The translations under genes were made by a program, and so were the position numbers. 64,000 nt of DNA from Streptomyces griseoluteus (GTDB lineage: Bacteria; Actinomycetota; Actinomycetes; Streptomycetales; Streptomycetaceae). The notes under the pieces were generated by a model. It was not told the origin of the DNA. It was given only the letters and a program-made list of their open reading frames with translations, and did no database searches. The stretch covers positions 62,001 through 126,000 of the forward strand of contig NZ_SRRU01000010.1 in NCBI RefSeq assembly GCF_004784465.1, in the 5' to 3' direction. Shown here piece after piece: positions 2,834-45,591 of this stretch (position 1 is its first letter; the number at the start of each line of letters is the position of its first letter).

Positions 2834-3199
2834 GGGGATGATCGGTTTCGACAGCGGATGTCGAAGCAGGGGAAGCGTGTCGAGGAAGCGGCAATGATCT
2901 CGTAAACCATATGTCGCAAAAAATAATCGCCAACACCAAGCGCGATTCCTTCGCCCTCGCTGCCTAAGTAGCGACTTGCGAAGTGTCAGCCCGGGGCTGT
3001 TCCCGACCCGGATCCTGGCATCAGCTAGGGAACTAAACCTTGATCCCGGTCACGGGGTGAAGAGGGAAATCTAACAGTGACTGAGCCCGTCGGAGACTTG
3101 TCCGCGTGATCTCCGGGGCCGAGAAAATCGAAGCGGACTGCACACGGAGAAGCCCTGTTTCTGCACCGGTGGACGCGGGTTCGATTCCCGCCATCTCCA
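2834..3199 (+). ncRNA. ssrA: Transfer-messenger RNA (tmRNA)
   Basis: Rescues stalled ribosomes and tags the nascent peptide. The 5' end (GGGGATG, 2834-2840) pairs with CATCTCC (3192-3198) as a 7-bp acceptor stem with one G-U pair. A tRNA-like T-arm (GCGGGTTCGATTCCCGC) precedes it. The next encoded bases are not CCA, so CCA is presumably added after transcription. The tag frame at 2929-2967 reads ANTKRDSFALAA-stop, ending in the LAA degron. Together with smpB this forms the complete trans-translation pair. The tag is shorter than the Streptomyces form I remember (see findings). Confidence 0.96.
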
Positions 3200-3239
3200 C
3201 GATCGGGAGGCCCTCGGGCCTTCGGAACCCATGTGGGCA

Positions 3240-10174: not shown

Positions 10175-10750
10175 GTGACGCAGCGCATGGCACTCGGTAC
10201 GCCCCGATTCGACGCCGGGCGAAGTTGCCTGGACCTGCTGGCCACCGCGCACCCCGAGGAACGGATCGGTACGGCGGGGGAGTTGGCGGCCTGGGTGATC
10301 GGGGCCGGGCTGGTGCCGGCGGGGACTCCGCCGGTGCCGGCGGACGGGGGATGGGTCGCGCGGTTCCTGGAACTGCGGTGGCACACGGAGAGGTCGATAC
10401 GGGCCTCCCGCGCCCCCGCCGACTCCCTGGACCGGATCAACCGCACCGCCCGCGCCGCCGCACCCCCGGCCGTCCGGGCCGTCGCCCAGCAGAGCGGTCC
10501 GCTCGTCAGGGAGCTGGCCGAGGTGCCCACGGCCGCCGCCCTCCTCTCCCTCCTCGCGCGTGACGCCATCGACCTCCTCACCGACCCCCTCGCGCGGGCG
10601 GCCGTGCGTGAATGCGCGGGGGAGGGATGTCCGTTGCTGTATCTCGACACCTCGCGCGGGCGCCGCAGGCGATGGTGCTCCAGCGAGGCGTGCGGGAACC
10701 GCGAGCGGGTCGCCCGGCACCGGAGGCGGGTCGCGCTCGCCCGGTCCTGA
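10175..10750 (+). CDS. CGNR zinc-finger regulator (ABATE domain)
   Basis: A 191-residue protein. The N-terminal ABATE-type domain begins with FDAGRSCLDLLAT. The C-terminal zinc finger is CAGEGCPLLYLDTSR, WCSSEACGNRERVARHRRR: four Cys plus the CGNR signature, a predicted nucleic-acid-binding domain. These proteins are probable regulators linked to stress or transport; the target is unknown. The GTG at 10175 and ATG at 10187 are both possible starts with weak ribosome-binding sites. Confidence 0.85.
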   Translation: MTQRMALGTPRFDAGRSCLDLLATAHPEERIGTAGELAAWVIGAGLVPAGTPPVPADGGWVARFLELRWHTERSIRASRAPADSLDRINRTARAAAPPAVRAVAQQSGPLVRELAEVPTAAALLSLLARDAIDLLTDPLARAAVRECAGEGCPLLYLDTSRGRRRRWCSSEACGNRERVARHRRRVALARS

Positions 10751-11026
10751 ACGTCCGGGTACGGCCCAAGTGCCGGAAAGGCGCAATCACTTGAACCATG
10801 TGATTTGGGCAACACCGGGTTTGCCTGACCGTAAGTCAGGGCAGCCCGAAGCCACTTGACGCCGTATCGGAAATGTAAAGATCGCGCGGTGAGAATGTGC
10901 GCGCATGTCCCGCTCGTCACACCACCGTTGAGAAAAACACCACCTCACCTTGAACAACCGCGCCTCCCGCCCCGTACGAAGGGGCGAGCGACCGACGGGG
11001 GCAAGCCCCGGACACCGGAGGTGGGC

Positions 11027-11614
11027 GTGCGCAAGGATGCGGCCGTGGCCAATGAACGTGGATCGAGGGCCCGACATCGCATGTCCTCGCAGCCCTCACA
11101 GTCGTCGGAACCCGACGAGGAGTTGATGCGTGCCCTGTACCGGGAGCACGCCGGACCGCTCCTCGCCTATGTCCTCCGGCTGGTCGCCGGTGACCGGCAG
11201 CGCGCCGAGGACGTCGTACAGGAAACGCTCATCCGTGCCTGGAAGAACGCCGGTCAGCTCAATCGGGCGACCGGTTCGGTACGCCCCTGGCTGGTGACGG
11301 TCGCCCGGCGCATCGTCATCGACGGCCACCGCAGCCGGCAGGCCCGGCCGCAGGAGGTCGATCCGTCGCCGCTGGAGGTCATCCCCGCGGAGGACGAGAT
11401 CGACAAGGCGCTGTGGCTGATGACGCTGACGGACGCGCTCGACGACCTGACCCCGGCCCACCGGGAGGTGCTCGTCGAGACCTATTTCAAGGGGCGTACC
11501 GTCAACGAGGCGGCCCAGACCCTCGGGATACCCAGCGGCACCGTCCGCTCACGGGTGTTCTACGCCCTGCGATCGATGAAGCTGGCGCTGGAGGAGCGGG
11601 GGGTGACGGCGTGA
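11027..11614 (+). CDS. sigU: ECF RNA polymerase sigma factor (SigU-like)
   Basis: A 195-residue ECF sigma factor. Region 2 is at about residues 28-95 (LYREHAGPLLAYVLRLVAGD, AEDVVQETLIRAWKN, RPWLVTVARRIVIDGHRS) and region 4 at 130-190 (LTPAHREVLVETYFKGRTV, LGIPSGTVRSRVFYALRSMK). It directs polymerase to a small regulon and is controlled by the anti-sigma gene overlapping its stop. The GTG at 11027 sits 6 bases after GGAG; the internal ATG at 11081 is an alternative. An inverted repeat (CCTGAC, 10824-10829, with its complement at 10835-10840) lies upstream. The SigU name rests on gene order next to the HelD-like and malic-enzyme genes. Confidence 0.85.
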   Translation: MRKDAAVANERGSRARHRMSSQPSQSSEPDEELMRALYREHAGPLLAYVLRLVAGDRQRAEDVVQETLIRAWKNAGQLNRATGSVRPWLVTVARRIVIDGHRSRQARPQEVDPSPLEVIPAEDEIDKALWLMTLTDALDDLTPAHREVLVETYFKGRTVNEAAQTLGIPSGTVRSRVFYALRSMKLALEERGVTA

Positions 11615-12435
11615 TGAGCGTGTACGGGGGAATGCGAGGATTCGGCGCGGGGAGTACGGGTATGTCTGGCCCCATGCAGGGATCTCCGGTGCCGAACGAG
11701 CACGAGACCGTCGGCGCCTACGCCCTCGGGATTCTCGACGACACCGAGGCGACCGCGTTCGAGACGCACCTGGCGGGCTGCGAGTGGTGCGCCCAGCAAC
11801 TGGACGAACTCGCGGGGATGGAGCCCATGCTGGCCGCCCTCGCCGACCTGCCGGGCACCGGCAGCACCCCGGTCATCGGGGAGTCGCTGTCCGCGCGGCC
11901 CACCCCGAGACTGGTCGAGAAACTGGTCGACGAGGTCGCCGAGCGGCGCGCGAGCAAGCGGCGCCGCGGCTTCTACCTGGTCGCCGCCGCGGCCGCGCTG
12001 ATCATCGGCGGTCCGGTGGCCGTGATGTCCGTGAGCGGTGGTGGCACGAGTCAGACGGCGACCCCGCTGGCCGCCTCCGCCAAGGACCACTTCGACCAGT
12101 TGCCCACCAAGGTCACCGGCACGGACGCCGGCACCGGCGTCTCCGCGACCGTCGCCCTGCAGGGCAAGGCGTGGGGCACCGACGCGGTGCTGCGGCTGGG
12201 CGGGGTCAAGGGCGAGCTGAAGTGCTCCCTGATCGCGGTCGGCAAGAACGGTGAGCGGCAGACGCTCGGCTCCTGGAGCGTGCCCAAGGACGGCTACGGC
12301 CTCCCGGACGCCAAGACCGAGCAGGCCCGCAACCCCCTGTTCATCGGGGGCGGCACCGCTCTCCAGCCCGGCGAGATCGACCACTTCGACGTCATGACCC
12401 TGGACGGCAAGAAGCTCGTCCAAGTGGACGCCTAG
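11614..12435 (+). CDS. rsuA: Zinc-finger anti-sigma factor (RsuA-like)
   Basis: A 273-residue membrane anti-sigma factor. The N-terminal zinc-binding anti-sigma motif H-x3-C-x2-C is present (HLAGCEWCAQQLDEL, about residues 50-64). A membrane segment follows (FYLVAAAAALIIGGPVAVM, about 121-139), then an extracytoplasmic domain of about 130 residues (DUF-like, with VALQGKAWGTDAVL). The start overlaps the sigU stop by one base (TGATG), so the two should be made in a fixed ratio. It probably holds SigU at the membrane until an envelope signal triggers release. GTG at 11611 is an alternative start. Confidence 0.86.
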   Translation: MSVYGGMRGFGAGSTGMSGPMQGSPVPNEHETVGAYALGILDDTEATAFETHLAGCEWCAQQLDELAGMEPMLAALADLPGTGSTPVIGESLSARPTPRLVEKLVDEVAERRASKRRRGFYLVAAAAALIIGGPVAVMSVSGGGTSQTATPLAASAKDHFDQLPTKVTGTDAGTGVSATVALQGKAWGTDAVLRLGGVKGELKCSLIAVGKNGERQTLGSWSVPKDGYGLPDAKTEQARNPLFIGGGTALQPGEIDHFDVMTLDGKKLVQVDA

Positions 12436-12521
12436 TGGCTGCTGGAATCACGCCCGCGTAGCTTTGCCGGGTCCTCTTCGCGTACGGTTGACGGCTGCCC
12501 AGCACGTCAGAAGGGGGCCCG

Positions 12522-14837
12522 GTGGCCGCTCAGGTTCAGCATTCCGCGGTCGGCTCGGTTAACGGCGCGAACGACTCCGTACGGGACCGAGAGATCAGCG
12601 TCGAACAGGAACACCTGGACCGGGTGTACCGGCGGCTCGAGGAGAAGATCCACGAGGCCGAGTTCCTGATGCACGACGCGGCCCAGCGCGGCCATGTGGG
12701 GACGCCGGGCGCGCTGGCCGAGCGGGACGCGCAGGTCTTCCGGGCCGGCATCCACCTCAACCGGCTCAACAACGAGTTCGAGGACTTCCTCTTCGGCCGG
12801 GTCGACCTGCTCCAGGGCAAGGACGGCAAGAAGGGCCCGGACGGCGCGTACACCGCCGTCGAGCCCGCCGAGGGGGCCGTACGCCCCGACAACACCGCCG
12901 CCATCGCCGAGACCCTGCACATCGGGCGGATCGGCGTCCTGGACGAGGACTACTCGCCGCTGGTCATCGACTGGCGGGCGCCGGCCGCCGCGCCGTTCTA
13001 CCGCTCCACCCCCGTCGACCCCGGCCGGGTCGTGCGGCGCCGGGTCATCCGCTCCAAGGGCCGCCGCGTCCTCGGGGTGGAGGACGACCTGATGCGCCCC
13101 GAGCTGAAGGCCACCCTGGACGGCGGGGAGCTGCCCGTCATCGGCGACGGCGCGCTGATGGCCGCCCTCGGCCAGGCGCGCGGGCACACCATGCGGGACA
13201 TCGTCTCCTCGATCCAGGCCGAGCAGGACCAGGTCATCCGCGCCCCCGCCGCCTCCGTCACCTACGTGGAGGGCGGCCCCGGCACCGGCAAGACCGCCGT
13301 CGCCCTGCACCGCGCGGCCTATCTGCTCTACCAGGACCGCAGACGCTACGCGGGCGGCATCCTGATCGTCTCGCCGACCCCGCTGCTGGTGGCCTACACC
13401 GAGGGCGTGCTGCCCTCCCTCGGCGAGGAGGGCCAGGTCGCCATCCGCGCGATCGGCTCGCTCGTCGACGGTGTCGAGGCCACGCTCCACGACTCCCCGG
13501 CCGTCGCCCGCGCCAAGGGCTCGTACCGGATGCTGAAGGTGCTGCGCCGGGCCGCACGCGGCGCCCTCGAACTCGGCACCGACGCCAATGCCCTGCCCGA
13601 CCGGCTCCGCGTCGTCGCCTTCGGCCGCCGCCTGGAACTGGAGGCCCGGGAGCTGGAGTCCGTGCGCCGCACCGCGCTCGGCGGCACCGCCCCCGTCAAC
13701 CTGCTCCGCCCCCGCGCCCGCAAGCTGCTGCTGGACGCCCTGTGGGCCAAGTCCGGCGCCGCCTCCCGGCACACCGACCCGGAGCTGGCCGCCGAGCTGC
13801 GCGCCTCCTTCGACGATGACGTGGCCGACGAGGACTCCTTCATCGCCTTCCTCGACGCCTGGTGGCCCGAGCTGACCCCCAAGGGCGTCCTCGCCGCCAT
13901 GGCCGACGAGAGGCGGCTGGGCCGCTGGGCCCGCCGGGTGCTCAACCCCGGTGAGGTCCGCAAGGTCGCCCGCGCGCTGAAGCGGGACGGCTTCTCCGTG
14001 CACGACATCGCCATGCTGGACGAACTCCAGGCGATCCTCGGCGCCCCGGCCCGCCCCCGCAAGAAGCGCGAACTGGACCCGCTGGACCAGCTCACCGGCC
14101 TGGAGGAGCTGATGCCGGTGCGCGAGGAGACCCAGCGCGAGCGCGCCGAGCGGCTCGCCCAGGAGCGCACCGAGTACGCGCACGTCATCGTGGACGAGGC
14201 GCAGGACCTCACCCCGATGCAGTGGCGCATGGTCGGCCGCCGGGGCCGGCACGCCACCTGGACGGTCGTGGGCGACCCCGCCCAGTCCTCCTGGTCCGAC
14301 CCGGACGAGGCGGCCGAGGCCCGCGACGAGGCCCTGGGCTCCAGACCTCGGCGCCGCTTCGAGCTCACCGTCAACTACCGCAACCCCGCCGAGATCGCCG
14401 AGCTGGCCGCCAAGGTGCTCGCCCTCGCCATGCCCGGCTCCGAGTCCCCCCGCGCCGTACGCTCCACCGGCGTCCAGCCGCGCTTCGAGGTCGCCGGGGA
14501 CTCCCTGGCCGCCACCGTCCGCGCGGAGGCCGAGCGGCTGCTCTCCCTGGTCGACGGCACCGTCGGCGTCGTCGTCGCCATGAACCGGCGCGAGGAGGCC
14601 CGCCGCTGGCTCGCCGGGCTCGGGGACCGCGTGGTCGCCCTCGGCAGCCTGGAGGCCAAGGGCCTGGAGTACGACGCGACCGTGGTCGTCTCCCCGGCCG
14701 AGATCGCCGACGAGTCCCCGGCCGGCCTGCGCGTGCTGTACGTCGCCCTCACCCGTGCGACCCAGCAGCTCACCGTGGTCTCCGGCGACCGCGACGAGCC
14801 GGACCCGGCCCGCGTCCCGGACCTGCTGCGGGACTGA
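12522..14837 (+). CDS. HelD/HelR-type UvrD-like RNA-polymerase motor ATPase
   Basis: A 771-residue superfamily-1 ATPase. An N-terminal helical/coiled region (HLDRVYRRLEEKIHEAEFLM) precedes a split helicase core: Walker A GGPGTGKTAVALHRAAYLLY (about residue 250), Walker B VIVDEAQDLTPMQW (about 560), and motif VI LRVLYVALTRATQQLTVVSG near the C-terminus. This layout fits HelD proteins, which remove stalled or drug-bound RNA polymerase from DNA, better than UvrD or Rep. HelR homologues in Streptomyces give rifamycin tolerance. I see no rifamycin-associated palindrome in the 86-base upstream gap. The GTG start follows AGAAGGGGG. Confidence 0.82.
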   Translation: MAAQVQHSAVGSVNGANDSVRDREISVEQEHLDRVYRRLEEKIHEAEFLMHDAAQRGHVGTPGALAERDAQVFRAGIHLNRLNNEFEDFLFGRVDLLQGKDGKKGPDGAYTAVEPAEGAVRPDNTAAIAETLHIGRIGVLDEDYSPLVIDWRAPAAAPFYRSTPVDPGRVVRRRVIRSKGRRVLGVEDDLMRPELKATLDGGELPVIGDGALMAALGQARGHTMRDIVSSIQAEQDQVIRAPAASVTYVEGGPGTGKTAVALHRAAYLLYQDRRRYAGGILIVSPTPLLVAYTEGVLPSLGEEGQVAIRAIGSLVDGVEATLHDSPAVARAKGSYRMLKVLRRAARGALELGTDANALPDRLRVVAFGRRLELEARELESVRRTALGGTAPVNLLRPRARKLLLDALWAKSGAASRHTDPELAAELRASFDDDVADEDSFIAFLDAWWPELTPKGVLAAMADERRLGRWARRVLNPGEVRKVARALKRDGFSVHDIAMLDELQAILGAPARPRKKRELDPLDQLTGLEELMPVREETQRERAERLAQERTEYAHVIVDEAQDLTPMQWRMVGRRGRHATWTVVGDPAQSSWSDPDEAAEARDEALGSRPRRRFELTVNYRNPAEIAELAAKVLALAMPGSESPRAVRSTGVQPRFEVAGDSLAATVRAEAERLLSLVDGTVGVVVAMNRREEARRWLAGLGDRVVALGSLEAKGLEYDATVVVSPAEIADESPAGLRVLYVALTRATQQLTVVSGDRDEPDPARVPDLLRD

Positions 14838-14895
14838 ACGGGGACTGTTTCCGAGAACCCCGCGCACGGGGGAATGCCCCTCGGGGTGTGTTTGT

Positions 14896-14901
14896 TAGCC
14901 T
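14896..14901 (+). promoter_or_regulatory. Candidate -10 box for the 14904-15040 RNA
   Basis: TAGCCT fits the Streptomyces -10 pattern. A start 7 bases downstream (about 14908) coincides with the 5' arm of the long helix described next. No convincing -35 is visible at 14872-14878. Confidence 0.4.
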
Positions 14902-14903
14902 TG

Positions 14904-14998
14904 TCGTGACACCGGCCCGATCCAAGCCCCCGGGCCCAACCTTCGTCGCTACGAGCGACCACTTGCCGCGAGGCGAGCATGGCGGGTCGGTGTCATGA
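14904..14998 (+). ncRNA. Structured RNA element of unknown family upstream of the malic enzyme gene
   Basis: Bases 14904-14919 pair with 14983-14998 over 16 consecutive positions, with two G-U wobbles and no mismatch. Enclosed are two further perfect stems: GTCGCT (14945-14950) with AGCGAC (14954-14959), and CTTGCC (14962-14967) with GGCGAG (14972-14977, one G-U) closed by a GNRA-type GCGA tetraloop. A C-rich segment (14921-14944) could form a third arm. A strong terminator hairpin follows 7 bases later. It could be a short sRNA or an aptamer-terminator leader for the malic enzyme. It does not look like a riboswitch family I recognise. Confidence 0.6.
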
Positions 14999-15005
14999 AT
15001 GTGAG

Positions 15006-15040
15006 CGAGAGGCCCATGTCCCTGTGACGTGGGCCTCTCG
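15006..15040 (+). terminator. Terminator hairpin after the structured RNA
   Basis: The stem has an 11-bp perfect outer part (CGAGAGGCCCA with its complement at 15030-15040) and four further inner pairs, loop CCTGT, followed by TCTTGGG. It ends about 120 bases before the malic-enzyme start, so it could be conditional. Confidence 0.8.
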
Positions 15041-15161
15041 TCTTGGGCGACGGCCCGAGAACACAACGTCCGCAATCGGAGCCGACTACCACGTACTCGG
15101 CGGTAGGTGCGACGATCGGACGGCACAACACGCGACACGGTGAAAGCAGAGGAAGTCGGCC

Positions 15162-16577
15162 ATGGCAACGGCGCCCAGCGTCTCCTACTCGATGACGGTC
15201 CGGTTGGAGGTGCCCGCGAGCGGAACGGCCGTATCGCAGCTCACCACCGCCGTCGAGTCCTCCGGAGGCTCGGTCACCGGCCTCGACGTCACCGCCTCCG
15301 GGCACGAAAAGCTCCGGATCGACGTCACCATCGCGGCCAGCTCCACCGCGCACGCCGACGAGATCGTCGAAGAGCTGCGGAACATCGAGGGCGTCACGCT
15401 CGGCAAGGTCTCCGACCGTACGTTCCTGATGCACCTCGGCGGCAAGATCGAGATGCAGTCCAAGCACCCCATCCGCAACCGTGACGACCTCTCCATGGTC
15501 TACACGCCCGGTGTGGCCCGCGTCTGCATGGCCATCGCGGAGAACCCCGAGGACGCCCGGCGCCTGACCATCAAGCGCAACTCCGTTGCGGTCGTGACGG
15601 ACGGTTCCGCGGTGCTCGGCCTCGGCAACATCGGCCCCAAGGCCGCGCTGCCGGTCATGGAGGGCAAGGCGGCCCTGTTCAAGCGGTTCGCCGGCATCGA
15701 CGCCTGGCCGCTGTGCCTGGACACCCAGGACACCGACGCGATCGTGGAGATCGTCAAGGCCATCGCCCCCGGCTTCGCGGGCATCAACCTGGAGGACATC
15801 TCCGCGCCCCGCTGCTTCGAGATCGAGGCCCGGCTGCGCGAGGCCCTGGACATCCCGGTCTTCCACGACGACCAGCATGGCACCGCCATCGTCGTGCTCG
15901 CCGCGCTGACCAACGCGCTGCGCGTCACCGGCCGTTCGATGGAGTCCATCCGGGTCGTCATGTCCGGTGCCGGAGCGGCCGGTACGGCCATCCTGAAGCT
16001 GCTGCTGGCCGCGGGCGTCAAGAACGCCGTCGTCGCCGACATCCACGGTGTGGTGCACGCCGGCCGCGAGGACCTGGTGGGCGCCCCCGCCGACTCCCCG
16101 CTGCGCTGGATCGCGGACAACACCAACCCCGAGGGTCTCACCGGCACTCTCAAGGAGGCCGTGCGCGGCGCCGACGTCTTCATCGGCGTCTCCGCCCCGA
16201 ACGTCCTGGACGGCACCGACGTGGCCGCCATGGCGGACGGCGCGATCGTCTTCGCACTGGCGAACCCGGACCCCGAGGTCGACCCCGCGGTGGCCCGGCA
16301 GACGGCCGCCGTGGTGGCCACCGGCCGCTCGGACTTCCCCAACCAGATCAACAACGTGCTGGTCTTCCCCGGTGTCTTCCGCGGCCTGCTGGACGCCCAG
16401 TCCCGCACCGTCAACACCGAGATGATGCTCGCCGCCGCGCAGGCCCTCGCCAACGTGGTCACCGAGGACGAGCTGAACCCGAACTACATCGTCCCCAGCG
16501 TCTTCAACGACAAGGTCGCGGGCGCGGTAGCCGGAGCCGTCCGGGAGGCCGCCAAGGCGGCCGGAGCGACGTCCTAG
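15162..16577 (+). CDS. NAD(P)-dependent malic enzyme with N-terminal ACT domain
   Basis: Oxidative decarboxylation of malate to pyruvate and CO2, linking the TCA cycle to pyruvate and NAD(P)H. The 471-residue protein has an ACT regulatory domain at residues 5-85 and the short bacterial malic-enzyme core: YTPGVARVC (catalytic Tyr), the metal-binding region NLEDISAP, FHDDQHGTA and the nucleotide-binding loop GAGAAGTAI. The ACT domain suggests allosteric control by a small ligand. The ATG at 15162 lies after GAGGAA-like purines. A structured RNA plus terminator precede it. The cofactor (NAD or NADP) cannot be decided by reading. Confidence 0.93.
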   Translation: MATAPSVSYSMTVRLEVPASGTAVSQLTTAVESSGGSVTGLDVTASGHEKLRIDVTIAASSTAHADEIVEELRNIEGVTLGKVSDRTFLMHLGGKIEMQSKHPIRNRDDLSMVYTPGVARVCMAIAENPEDARRLTIKRNSVAVVTDGSAVLGLGNIGPKAALPVMEGKAALFKRFAGIDAWPLCLDTQDTDAIVEIVKAIAPGFAGINLEDISAPRCFEIEARLREALDIPVFHDDQHGTAIVVLAALTNALRVTGRSMESIRVVMSGAGAAGTAILKLLLAAGVKNAVVADIHGVVHAGREDLVGAPADSPLRWIADNTNPEGLTGTLKEAVRGADVFIGVSAPNVLDGTDVAAMADGAIVFALANPDPEVDPAVARQTAAVVATGRSDFPNQINNVLVFPGVFRGLLDAQSRTVNTEMMLAAAQALANVVTEDELNPNYIVPSVFNDKVAGAVAGAVREAAKAAGATS

Positions 16578-16585
16578 CAGCGCTT

Positions 16586-16633
16586 GCCGTAGGGTCGGGG
16601 AGGTTGCGGGACCGACGCGGCCTCCCCTACGGC
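16586..16633 (+). terminator. Terminator after the malic enzyme gene
   Basis: GCCGTAGGG (16586-16594) pairs perfectly with CCCTACGGC (16625-16633). Extra G-rich/C-rich pairing inside the loop is possible. It starts 9 bases after the stop. Confidence 0.65.
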
Positions 16634-16664
16634 GAGTCGTCGGTTCCCCGGTCGTGACGCCCTC

Positions 16665-16670
16665 TAGGGT
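16665..16670 (+). promoter_or_regulatory. Candidate -10 box for hup
   Basis: TAGGGT within CTCTAGGGTG is a typical streptomycete -10. A -35 at 16643-16648 (GTTCCC) is poor. This leaves a leader of about 165 bases before the HU start, in which I see no further clear structure. Confidence 0.4.
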
Positions 16671-16843
16671 GTCGGCGGGGCAGGCGCTTTTCCTGTGACT
16701 CCCCAGGGTGGTCTCATGACTCCTACGGGTGCCGGATTGGCTTTCCCGCCGCAGGTAGGGGCAGGATGCGTCTCTGGGCGCGAGCGCATCGGCATCGATC
16801 TCACCTCACGCCTCATCGGCAAGAAGAACACGGGAGTAAGAAC

Positions 16844-17125
16844 ATGAACCGCAGTGAGCTGGTGGCCGCGCTGGCCGACCGCGCCGAGGTGACCCGCAAG
16901 GACGCCGACGCCGTGCTGGCCGCGTTCGCCGAGGTCGTCGGCGACATCGTCTCCAAGGGCGACGAGAAGGTCACCATCCCCGGCTTCCTGACCTTCGAGC
17001 GCACCCACCGTGCCGCTCGTACCGCGCGCAACCCGCAGACCGGTGAGCCCATCAACATCCCGGCCGGCTACAGCGTGAAGGTCTCCGCGGGCTCGAAGCT
17101 CAAGGAAGCCGCCAAGGGCAAGTAA
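16844..17125 (+). CDS. hup: HU-family nucleoid DNA-binding protein
   Basis: A 93-residue HU protein that bends and compacts DNA. Family hallmarks are present: MNRSELVAALADRA, VGDIVSKGDEKVTIPGFLTF and the DNA-binding arm ARNPQTGEPINIPA. The product lacks a lysine-rich C-terminal extension, so it is the short HupA/HS1-type rather than the long sporulation-associated HupS. The start at 16844 follows GGGAG and gives the standard HU N-terminus. Confidence 0.95.
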   Translation: MNRSELVAALADRAEVTRKDADAVLAAFAEVVGDIVSKGDEKVTIPGFLTFERTHRAARTARNPQTGEPINIPAGYSVKVSAGSKLKEAAKGK

Positions 17126-17180
17126 GCGCTCCGCTTGGGGCACCGGGCAACTGGGCGCCGTCGTGATCTGCGGGCCACCC

Positions 17181-17210
17181 GTGGCTTGTCGCGCAGTCCC
17201 CGTGCCCCTT
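17181..17210 (+). repeat. Dispersed intergenic repeat, diverged copy
   Basis: GTGGCTTGTCGCGCAGTCCC begins a unit that matches the copies at 62960, 63347 and, inverted, 63450. It lies between the convergent hup and murA genes. Confidence 0.7.
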
Positions 17211-17239
17211 ACGGGGGCACGCCCCAGTGGGCGAAGTCG

Positions 17240-17279
17240 AAATGGGCGGCCCCCCTGTCACCAGGGGGGCCGCCCATTT
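17240..17279. terminator. Bidirectional terminator between hup and murA
   Basis: A perfect 17-bp stem (arm AAATGGGCGGCCCCCCT, loop GTCACC) has A-run and T-run ends. It therefore works on both strands for these convergent genes. Confidence 0.9.
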
Positions 17280-17295
17280 GCGTGCGCGGGACCCG

Positions 17296-18636
17296 TCAGC
17301 CGAGCGCCTTGCCGGGGAGTTCGACCTTCGCGCCCAGTTCCACGAGCTTCTCCATGAAGTTCTCGTAGCCGCGGTTGATCAGGTCGATGCCGTGGACGCG
17401 CGAGGTGCCCTCGGCCGCGAGGGCCGCGATGAGGTACGAGAAGCCGCCGCGCAGGTCGGGGATGACCAGGTCGGCGCCCTGCAGCTTGGTCGGGCCGGAG
17501 ACGACCGCCGAGTGCAGGAAGTTCCGCGCCCCGAAGCGGCAGTCCGAGCCGCCCAGGCACTCGCGGTAGAGCTGGATGTGCGCGCCCATCTGGTTCAGTG
17601 CCGAGGTGAAGCCGAGCCGGGACTCGTACACCGTCTCGTGGACGATGGACAGGCCCGTGGCCTGGGTGAGGGCCACCACCAGCGGCTGCTGCCAGTCGGT
17701 CTGGAAGCCGGGGTGCACGTCCGTCTCCAGCGCGATGGACTTGAGCTGGCCGCCGGGGTGCCAGAAGCGGATGCCCTCGTCGTCGATCTCGAAGGCGCCG
17801 CCGACCTTGCGGTAGGTGTTCAGGAACGTCATCATCGAGCGCTGCTGGGCGCCCCGGACGTAGATGTTGCCGCCGGTCGCGAGCGCCGCGGAAGCCCAGG
17901 AGGCCGCCTCCAGGCGGTCCGGGAGGGCGCGGTGGTTGTAGCCGCCCAGCGAGTCCACACCGGTGATGCGGATCGTCCGGTCGGTGTCCATGGCGATGAT
18001 CGCGCCCATCTTCTGCAGTACGCAGATGAGGTCCTCGATCTCGGGCTCCACGGCCGCGTTGGACAGCTCGGTGACACCCTCGGCCAGCACGGCCGTGAGC
18101 AGCACCTGCTCGGTGGCGCCCACCGACGGGTAGGGCAGCTCGATCTTCGTGCCGCGCAGCCGCTGCGGGGCCTCCAGGTACTGGCCGTCCGCCCGCTTCT
18201 CGATGGTCGCGCCGAACTGGCGCAGCACGTCGAAGTGGAAGTCGATCGGCCGGCCGCCGATGTCGCAGCCGCCGAGGCCGGGGATGAAGGCGTGGCCCAG
18301 ACGGTGCAGCAGCGGGCCGCAGAACAGGATCGGGATACGGCTGGAACCCGCGTGGGCGTCGATGTCGGCGACGTTCGCGCTCTCGACGTAGGTGGGGTCC
18401 AGGATCAGCTCGCCCGGCTCCTCGCCCGGCCGCACCGTCACGCCGTGCAACTGGAGCAGGCCGCGCACGACCCGCACGTCTCGGATGTCCGGGACGTTGC
18501 GCAGGCGGCTGGGCGCGCTGCCCAGAAGGGCGGCGACCATGGCCTTCGGCACGAGGTTCTTCGCACCGCGGACACGGATCTCGCCCTCCAGCGGGGTTCC
18601 GCCGTGGACAAGCAGGACATCGTCGTTGACGGTCAT
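17296..18636 (-). CDS. murA: UDP-N-acetylglucosamine 1-carboxyvinyltransferase
   Basis: First committed step of peptidoglycan synthesis: transfer of enolpyruvate from PEP to UDP-GlcNAc, in the cytoplasm. The 446-residue length is normal plus a short N-terminal extension. Visible motifs are RGAKNLVPKAMVAALLG (active-site Lys and Asn), GGCDIGGRPIDFHFD (the Cys that reacts with fosfomycin is present) and the C-terminal ALAAEGTSRVHGIDLINRGY. The start ATG at 18636 gives MTVNDDVLLVHGG. It is convergent with hup and divergent from the YqgE gene. Confidence 0.96.
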   Translation of the reverse strand: MTVNDDVLLVHGGTPLEGEIRVRGAKNLVPKAMVAALLGSAPSRLRNVPDIRDVRVVRGLLQLHGVTVRPGEEPGELILDPTYVESANVADIDAHAGSSRIPILFCGPLLHRLGHAFIPGLGGCDIGGRPIDFHFDVLRQFGATIEKRADGQYLEAPQRLRGTKIELPYPSVGATEQVLLTAVLAEGVTELSNAAVEPEIEDLICVLQKMGAIIAMDTDRTIRITGVDSLGGYNHRALPDRLEAASWASAALATGGNIYVRGAQQRSMMTFLNTYRKVGGAFEIDDEGIRFWHPGGQLKSIALETDVHPGFQTDWQQPLVVALTQATGLSIVHETVYESRLGFTSALNQMGAHIQLYRECLGGSDCRFGARNFLHSAVVSGPTKLQGADLVIPDLRGGFSYLIAALAAEGTSRVHGIDLINRGYENFMEKLVELGAKVELPGKALG

Positions 18637-45516: not shown

Positions 45517-45561
45517 CGGAGGCCGTGGCGGGAATCGAACCCGCGTAACTCGCTTTGCAGG
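45517..45561. repeat. attR core
   Basis: Identical over 45 bases to 27901-27945. It covers the 3' half of the intact tRNA-Cys, so integration preserves the gene. Confidence 0.92.
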
Positions 45562-45591
45562 CGAGTCCCTGAGCCACTCGGGCACACGGCC
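45520..45591 (-). tRNA. tRNA-Cys (anticodon GCA)
   Basis: Read on the minus strand: 7-bp acceptor stem GGCCGTG/CACGGCC, D-arm, anticodon stem CTCGC/GCGAG with loop CTGCAAA (anticodon GCA), T-arm GCGGG-TTCGATT-CCCGC, and discriminator U73, which cysteinyl-tRNA synthetase requires. CCA is not encoded. It is the integration target of the AICE; the half from the anticodon loop to the 3' end is duplicated at attL. Confidence 0.93.

Follow-up and report, generated by a model that had tools for sequence, protein, structure and literature searches.

A small structured RNA of about 134 nt, encoded on the + strand at 14907-15040 of a 64,000-nt stretch of Streptomyces griseoluteus DNA (contig NZ_SRRU01000010.1; the whole stretch is called the window below), belongs to a class-wide actinobacterial family. 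It lies in the gap between a HelD/HelR-like gene, which ends at 14837, and a malic enzyme gene, which starts at 15162, and it is an independent gene that has a promoter and a terminator-like hairpin of its own. Its core consists of four helices, of which P1 closes a junction of three arms, P2, P3, and P4. At a probability of roughly 0.5, it is an autonomous RNA of the SigR/SigH type that acts in trans, with the P3-P4 core docking on a conserved partner.

Structure of the RNA

The predicted fold of window positions 14895-15050 has an energy of -88.7 kcal/mol (z -7.3), and none of 200 shuffled sequences reaches so low an energy. The parts of the RNA, with the basis for each, are as follows.

14907..15040, + strand: the whole small RNA, about 134 nt, terminator-like hairpin included (fold z -7.3, conservation, compensatory changes)
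14907..14919, + strand: P1 5' strand, the conserved part of the long helix (class-wide covariation)
14922..14924, + strand: CCA, which extends P1 inwards by pairing with 14980-14982 (paired in 138/138 distinct genus sequences; partly present class-wide)
14926..14935, + strand: P2, a small hairpin GCC-CCCG-GGC (14926-14928/14933-14935) forming a C-rich arm (invariant in the genus)
14936..14944, + strand: unpaired joining segment CCAACCUUC (YCCA(A/C) frequent class-wide, from column frequencies)
14945..14959, + strand: P3 hairpin, 14945-14950/14954-14959, with a triloop (compensatory G-C/C-G and U-A/G-C changes in the genus)
14962..14977, + strand: P4 hairpin, 14962-14967/14972-14977, with loop GCGA, a GNRA loop of the form GNGA (inner stem GCC/GGC nearly invariant)
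14983..14995, + strand: P1 3' strand (fold, genus alignment)
15006..15040, + strand: intrinsic-terminator-like hairpin of 15 bp, 15006-15020/15026-15040 (predicted fold)

Much of this fold had been proposed in an initial annotation of the same DNA, which described a 16-bp helix (14904-14919 with 14983-14998) enclosing two 6-bp hairpins, one of them with a GNRA loop, and followed by a 15-bp terminator. Both enclosed hairpins (P3 and P4) and the terminator hairpin are present in the predicted fold, as is the long helix; the fold also has three further pairs (14922-14924/14980-14982) and a third hairpin (14926-14928/14933-14935). The outer pairs of the long helix, 14904-14907, are not conserved: among the 138 distinct Streptomyces sequences, positions 14904, 14905, 14906, and 14907 are unpaired in 95, 80, 32, and 24, respectively, while pairs 14908-14919 are intact in all 138. 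The genus alignment thus trims the conserved part of P1 to about 12-14 pairs. Because the pairing of P1 frays outside 14908 and is unbroken from there inwards, the 5' end of the RNA is probably at about 14906-14908, in agreement with the start near 14908, at the base of the helix, that had been predicted earlier. The P3 loop can be read as UNCGA, and in this form presumably resembles a T-loop. The T tract after the terminator hairpin is weak in the window (TCTTG) and better in several relatives.

Conservation and gene order in Streptomyces

The DNA of positions 14850-15060 was matched in all 150 genomes of the genus that were searched, a set drawn from a larger group and including the genome studied here; their label as Streptomyces is based on gene order and on the literature. 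Across the 150 oriented sequences, positions 14908-14995 are nearly unchanged and the flanks vary. The covariance check suggested in the initial annotation was made on an alignment of the 138 distinct sequences among these 150 (A1), and the outcome was favorable. Pairing is kept with compensatory changes: 8 pairs are changed on both sides, with 131 such cells compared to 72 in shuffled alignments, a number reached in none of 500 shuffles. Two covariance models were built, R1 from the Streptomyces set and R2 as a wider model; their E-values are rough, given a short calibration. By R2, the genome has a single copy of the RNA, and the extra match in a DNA search of the same genome is only a 35-base reverse self-match of the terminator hairpin.

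The genes on either side in the window are

12522..14837, + strand: HelD/HelR-like RNA polymerase recycling motor, outside the RNA gene (uncertain start codon; scores fall below the curated NCBIfam cut-offs)
15162..16577, + strand: malic enzyme (read as free of cis control by the RNA)

In Streptomyces, helD lies upstream on the same strand in 144/150 sequences; the malic enzyme gene follows downstream, also on the RNA's strand, in 141/150, at a median of 230 nt past P1. This arrangement, together with the order of a compact fold followed by a terminator, resembles a riboswitch, and one of the two alternatives in the initial annotation was indeed a malic enzyme 5' leader, with P1-P4 as the aptamer and the terminator as the expression platform. 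However, in 5 of the 150 sequences (L062, L066, L080, L095, and L112) the RNA is inverted between helD and the malic enzyme gene, and in one (L147) it has been relocated, with neither gene beside it. As judged by eye, the inversion also takes in the hairpin that follows the RNA and the promoter box, which is GGGAT in L062 and GGAAT in the other four. Three other Streptomyces keep helD with no malic enzyme match in the stretch fetched, and one of these stretches ends at a contig end. A terminator-like hairpin (at least 9 bp, with at least 4 T among the next 8 bases) follows the RNA in 118/150 Streptomyces, compared to 7 of 75 random positions.

Three side observations concern the surroundings of the RNA. 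Between the terminator and the malic enzyme start, window positions 15060-15125 form another stretch shared by many of the aligned Streptomyces (GAACAnnACGTnCGCAAT ... TACTCGGCGGTAGGTGCGACGATCGGACGG), which may hold the malic enzyme's own promoter or an operator. In six Streptomyces loci (L004, L013, L014, L020, L027, and L029), the interval from the RNA to the malic enzyme gene holds an additional block, TCTCGTATGGTGGAA, which is absent from the window. Just upstream of the HelD-like gene, at 10856-12435, the window encodes an extracytoplasmic function (ECF) sigma factor (Sigma70_r2/r4) and a zf-HC2 anti-sigma-like protein.

Distribution and autonomy across the class

Searches of genomes drawn at successive taxonomic levels indicate how far the family extends. 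With R1, the RNA was found in 60 of 61 genomes (16 of 17 genera) of the family-level draw and in 182 of 197 genomes of the order-level draw; the genomes missed are exactly the 15 that lie outside the family. One sister family within the order gave weak R2 matches in 4 of 14 genomes (E about 4e-5). At the class level, R1 matched 145/296 genomes and 52/114 genera, and R2 matched 225/394 genomes and 73/137 genera; when the 40 genomes of the own genus are subtracted, 185/354 remain. A phylum-level draw of 396 genomes, in which the genomes outside the class served as the negative control, gave 29 R2 matches, none outside the class. The class label of the matches follows the named records of a pattern scan for P3-P4, which yielded at least 119 stretches in named genomes. 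Eighty of these loci were taken, from Brevibacterium, Cellulomonas, Arthrobacter, Nocardia, Mycolicibacterium, Gordonia, Rothia, Kocuria, Geodermatophilus, Microbacterium, Rhodococcus, Nocardioides, and others, and 79 of them match R1 at an E-value of 0.0004 or better. The 80th, L319:1-29 of a metagenome-assembled genome of Solirubrobacterales, lies outside the class; since it has no R1 match and the remaining parts of the RNA were not found alongside in the stretch examined, it is probably a chance pattern match. Within one genus, possibly mycobacterial (g24, family f6), some genomes have the RNA and in others it was not found, a pattern of patchy loss.

A set of 40 loci from outside the family was examined (from 36 genomes; several share a genus, and four are shorter than 10 kb), and all 40 retain a full-length match. 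Two of the named loci duplicate members of this set (L264 = L251 and L301 = L234). None of the 40 out-of-family loci has a tblastn match (E 1e-8) to helD, the malic enzyme, HU, MurA, or either protein of the window's sigma locus. Instead, the neighbors differ from locus to locus. Across a set of 68 loci, a family of 208-aa proteins (L240:4365-4991 and relatives) is encoded near the RNA, mostly just upstream; it is on the same strand as the RNA in 57 loci, at a median of 68 nt, and the one member examined has no Pfam or NCBIfam match. In the same set, pstB-like (33 loci) or PhoU-like (27 loci) genes are found within 3 kb. Three Mycobacterium-type loci (L248, L311, and L333) have a downstream gene in the opposite direction whose protein ends in FIDTW or FVDTW.

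These results bear on the choice left by the initial annotation. Given the inverted and relocated cassettes and the conservation of the RNA where no malic enzyme gene is near, as at all 40 out-of-family loci, it is very unlikely that the element is an aptamer with an expression platform that controls the malic enzyme. This reading is rejected on synteny and on the inverted cassettes, and the element matches no riboswitch class in Rfam 15. The other alternative, an independent small RNA (sRNA) of about 135 nt, is supported by synteny, by the inverted cassettes, and by class-wide conservation. The promoter and the terminator-like hairpin move with the RNA, as seen by eye in the five inverted cassettes and in the enrichment tests. 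Thus, the inverted and relocated cassettes, the varied neighbors, and the RNA's own promoter and hairpin all fit an autonomous RNA gene.

Several genomes have two or three copies of the RNA. G501 and G560 each have GGAAT-N18-GTT at just one of their copies; in G395, one copy has GGAAC-N19-GTT; and in G401, neither copy fits the motif. Locus L246 (genome G568) contains a tandem pair whose starts are 177 nt apart, each behind its own GGAAY-N18-GTT. Judging from these upstream sequences, it looks as if some genomes hold one constitutive and one inducible copy.

Class-wide covariation

Two alignments fitted to the model, A2 (50 matches) and A3 (101 matches from 100 sources, which omits 26 of the 80 named loci), were used to follow the structure across the class. 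In A2, there are 265 cells changed on both sides of a pair, compared to 91 in shuffled and at most 86 in slid alignments; in A3, there are 565, compared to 196 shuffled and at most 135 slid. When the column pairs of A3 are ranked by mutual information, the top 17 covarying pairs are all pairs of the model.

The helices differ in how they vary. P1 has been rewritten by compensatory change across the class and is free to vary, whereas P3, P4, and the joining segments are nearly fixed. P3 has the form GYCGCU-NCG-AGCGRC, with one pair that is C-G in 67 and U-A in 34 of the 101 sequences, and P4 has the form GCC-GNGA-GGC, with a GNRA loop. Of 119 loci examined, 112 were matched by the motif, and in 111 of these the spacer between P3 and P4 is 5 nt. 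P2 follows R-C-C/G-G-Y with a C-rich loop; its outer pair is G-C in 57/101 and A-U in 33/101, and its middle pair is unformed in 42/101. The joining segment after P2 is unpaired and often reads YCCAA.

Hairpins are common at high GC, and inverted repeats might arise by chance in GC-rich intergenic DNA; a small coding gene is another conceivable origin for a conserved stretch of this size. The probability of either is negligible. Both are refuted by the covariation, to which the z of -7.3 can be added, and no conserved reading frame was found: an open reading frame of at least 15 codons is present in 22 of 119 loci, and the spacers are not multiples of three. Conserved structure with compensatory changes is what is expected of a stand-alone structured RNA.

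A promoter of the SigR/SigH type

In Streptomyces, the thiol-stress sigma factor is SigR, and in Mycobacterium and Corynebacterium it is SigH; the published SigR consensus is GGAAT-N18-19-GTT (PMC9205884; this and the other papers below are cited from excerpts). SigR-RsrA is described as occurring throughout actinomycetes (PMC5472188). Upstream of the RNA, the window contains an exact match to this consensus, which is not mentioned in the initial annotation; that annotation gave a -10 box, TAGCCT at 14896-14901. The promoter elements are

14871..14875, + strand: -35 element GGAAT of a SigR/SigH-type promoter (sequence; exact SigR consensus match)
14894..14896, + strand: -10 element GTT of the SigR/SigH type, 18 nt past GGAAT (G14894 in 150/150, T14895 in 147/150, and T14896 in 150/150 Streptomyces)
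14893..14901, + strand: overlapping housekeeping-type extended -10, TGTTAGCCT, fitting TGnTAnnnT (T14896, A14897, and T14901 each in 150/150)

In Streptomyces, GGAAT-N18/19-GTTA precedes the RNA in 116/150 sequences, and it occurs in 3 of 6540 control windows. Beyond the genus, a looser form, GGAAY-N17-19-GTT, is present at 21 of the 40 out-of-family loci and in none of 2241 control windows, and at 29 of 78 named loci and in 4 of 4326 control windows. (In the promoter test, as in the terminator test, 78 of the 79 named loci were used, one being cut off.) The strict form, GGAAT-N18-19-GTT, is found at 18/40 out-of-family and 23/78 named loci. By name, the looser motif is present in Microbacterium (7/7), Nocardia (7/10), Mycolicibacterium (2/3), two other Mycobacterium records (2/2), Rhodococcus (2/2), Nocardioides (2/2), and Gordonia (1/1). 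On the strength of this promoter alone, thiol oxidants would be expected to induce the RNA through SigR/SigH.

The likeness to the SigR/SigH regulon lies in the promoter. The difference is that the regulon is described in terms of protein genes, and the excerpts of the regulon literature consulted for it contain no comparable non-coding RNA.

Relation to known RNAs

No Rfam 15 family matches the element at the gathering threshold, which bears out the earlier statement that no known riboswitch class could be recognized and completes the Rfam search proposed with it. At E-values up to 10, positions 14800-15200 gave two chance-level matches to unrelated families, and at E-values up to 5, positions 10500-17500 likewise gave only chance-level matches to unrelated families. 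A scan that included 14 of the 40 out-of-family loci matched no family. Membership in a known Rfam family is thus ruled out by the Rfam 15 scans. Elsewhere in the window, the matches at the gathering threshold are a tmRNA gene (2834-3202) and a tRNA gene (45520-45591) alone.

The transcript itself has probably been reported before, as scr2952 of S. coelicolor. Expression of scr2952 was confirmed by Vockenhuber et al. 2011, according to PMC8388888, where the RNA is also said to be shared by over half of the Streptomyces examined. Moody et al. 2013 name their own new sRNAs after the right-hand gene (PMC3765725), and scr3559, found by both groups, sits between SCO3558 and SCO3559 (PMC9130861). 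If scr2952 follows this rule, its expected place is between SCO2951, which encodes the malic enzyme (PMC7244524), and SCO2952, which is HelD (PMC8655204). The RNA described here lies between the homologues of these two genes, and so by position and naming rule it is probably scr2952. A reservation about this identification is that it depends on a naming rule. It stays at the level of probability because the match is one of position and because scr2952 is stated to be in Rfam (PMC8388888), yet no Rfam 15 model matches the RNA here. In the same source, the Rfam search reported no S. ambofaciens homologue of scr2952, and the excerpted description of scr2952 does not include class-wide spread, structure, or a SigR-type promoter. 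The term 'orphan', under which the RNA was first annotated, is too narrow because the family is class-wide; scr2952 is, moreover, probably the same transcript.

In the main-text excerpts of Moody 2013, Panek 2008, the S. clavuligerus survey, Romero 2014, and Jeong 2016 (supplements apart), the locus is not named. Excerpts of the literature on SCO2951, scr2952, and SigR/SigH sRNAs (supplements and closed papers apart) describe no class-wide family and no SigR control of the RNA. The RNA is rated a new family of a known kind, the stand-alone structured small RNA, whose transcript has probably been reported already.

6S/Ms1 RNAs are built around a single large central bubble. Like the present RNA, Ms1 (the 6S-like scr3559) stands alone and occurs in many actinobacterial species (PMC9130861); unlike it, Ms1 is about 230 nt long and is encoded at another locus. 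With a length of about 134 nt, below the 150 nt used as a cut to exclude 6S/Ms1 candidates (PMC9130861), and with a multi-arm junction, the RNA is ruled out as a 6S/Ms1 RNA. The 6C RNA is also an actinobacterial sRNA with a conserved C-rich arm (PMC8388888). However, 6C has two C-rich stem-loops, whereas the RNA here has a single small C-rich arm, enclosed by a long helix. The Rfam covariance model of 6C gives no match at the element.

Proposed action of the RNA

In the favored reading, thiol oxidation would release SigR/SigH, which would raise the RNA above a basal level. The basal level would exist alongside SigR/SigH induction; in Streptomyces, the SigR/SigH-type promoter overlaps the housekeeping-type -10. 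The RNA would then act in trans, with the P3-P4 core, held at a fixed spacing, as a docking surface for a conserved stress-response protein or ribonucleoprotein. RNA polymerase or the ribosome, for example, might be the partner, and the C-rich P2 arm would be accessory. Docking is favored because there is hardly any sequence change in P3, P4, and their loops, while P1 varies freely by compensation. More tentatively, and at somewhat less than even odds, the RNA could be a non-coding component of the SigR/SigH response to thiol stress whose T-loop-like and GNRA loops bind RNA polymerase, the ribosome, or another conserved partner upon thiol oxidation, with constitutive and inducible copies in some genomes.

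The main rival, which ranks close behind docking, is antisense action. Here, the P2 arm and the YCCAA segment would pair with G-rich translation-initiation regions of stress mRNAs. This is a real possibility, given that a C-rich CCCCGGNYCCAA-like segment is conserved class-wide and that the 6C sRNA is reported to bind mRNAs via its C-rich loops (PMC8388888). However, the near-invariant stems and loops of P3 and P4 would be unneeded for such pairing, and the C-rich segment is partly paired within P2.

Several results count against the docking reading and the evidence behind it. The A2 and A3 alignments lean toward the structure of the model to which they were fitted, and in A3 the number of pairs with change on both sides is 25, compared to 22.7 shuffled, a value reached in 20 of 500 shuffles. 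The invariance of P3 and P4 is partly imposed by the search: R1 was built from Streptomyces, and the pattern includes P3 and P4, so in the named subset, where P1 is absent from the pattern, their invariance is partly selection. R2 found no match in 169 of the 394 class genomes, some of them congeneric with positives (g24). Terminator-like hairpins are present at just 8/40 out-of-family loci (control 2/40) and at 17/78 named loci. As for the promoter, 34/150 Streptomyces lack GGAAT-N18-19-GTTA; 18 of these have GGGAT instead, 2 have TTGAC at -35, and 14 have neither. Even the looser motif is missing at 19/40 out-of-family and 49/78 named loci, including all of the Arthrobacter (0/4), Rothia (0/3), and Brevibacterium (0/3). 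Promoters of the TTGAC type are found in Arthrobacter (4/4), Sinomonas (1/1), and Rothia (2/3), as well as at 1 of the 40 out-of-family loci. A universal SigR promoter is ruled out by the loci with no motif and by the TTGAC-type lineages, and for the same reasons stress control cannot be universal.

These TTGAC-type lineages fit a third explanation, in which the housekeeping sigma factor drives a small RNA that is not a thiol-stress gene and GGAAT is the site for another ECF sigma factor or regulator. In keeping with this, the TAnnnT positions are present in 150/150 Streptomyces. Among the three most divergent Streptomyces sequences, two (L149 and L151) have TTGAC and no GGAAT upstream, and the third (L150) has neither; the TTGAC of L062 sits downstream of the -10 and so is not counted as a -35 element. 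In addition, HrdB chromatin immunoprecipitation sequencing covers 75 of 105 known S. coelicolor sRNAs, counted as a set in the excerpts of PMC6344877. Nevertheless, both halves of the SigR/SigH-type element and its 18-19 nt spacing fit the published SigR consensus and recur in distant families, and control mainly by the housekeeping sigma factor is judged unlikely.

Few structured RNAs are conserved over a whole bacterial class, and such RNAs tend toward central jobs. The analysis has provided a covariance model for this family and a predicted start site, and it has corrected the tempting reading of the element as a malic enzyme riboswitch. With it, the thiol-stress response of Streptomyces and its relatives gains a candidate RNA component.
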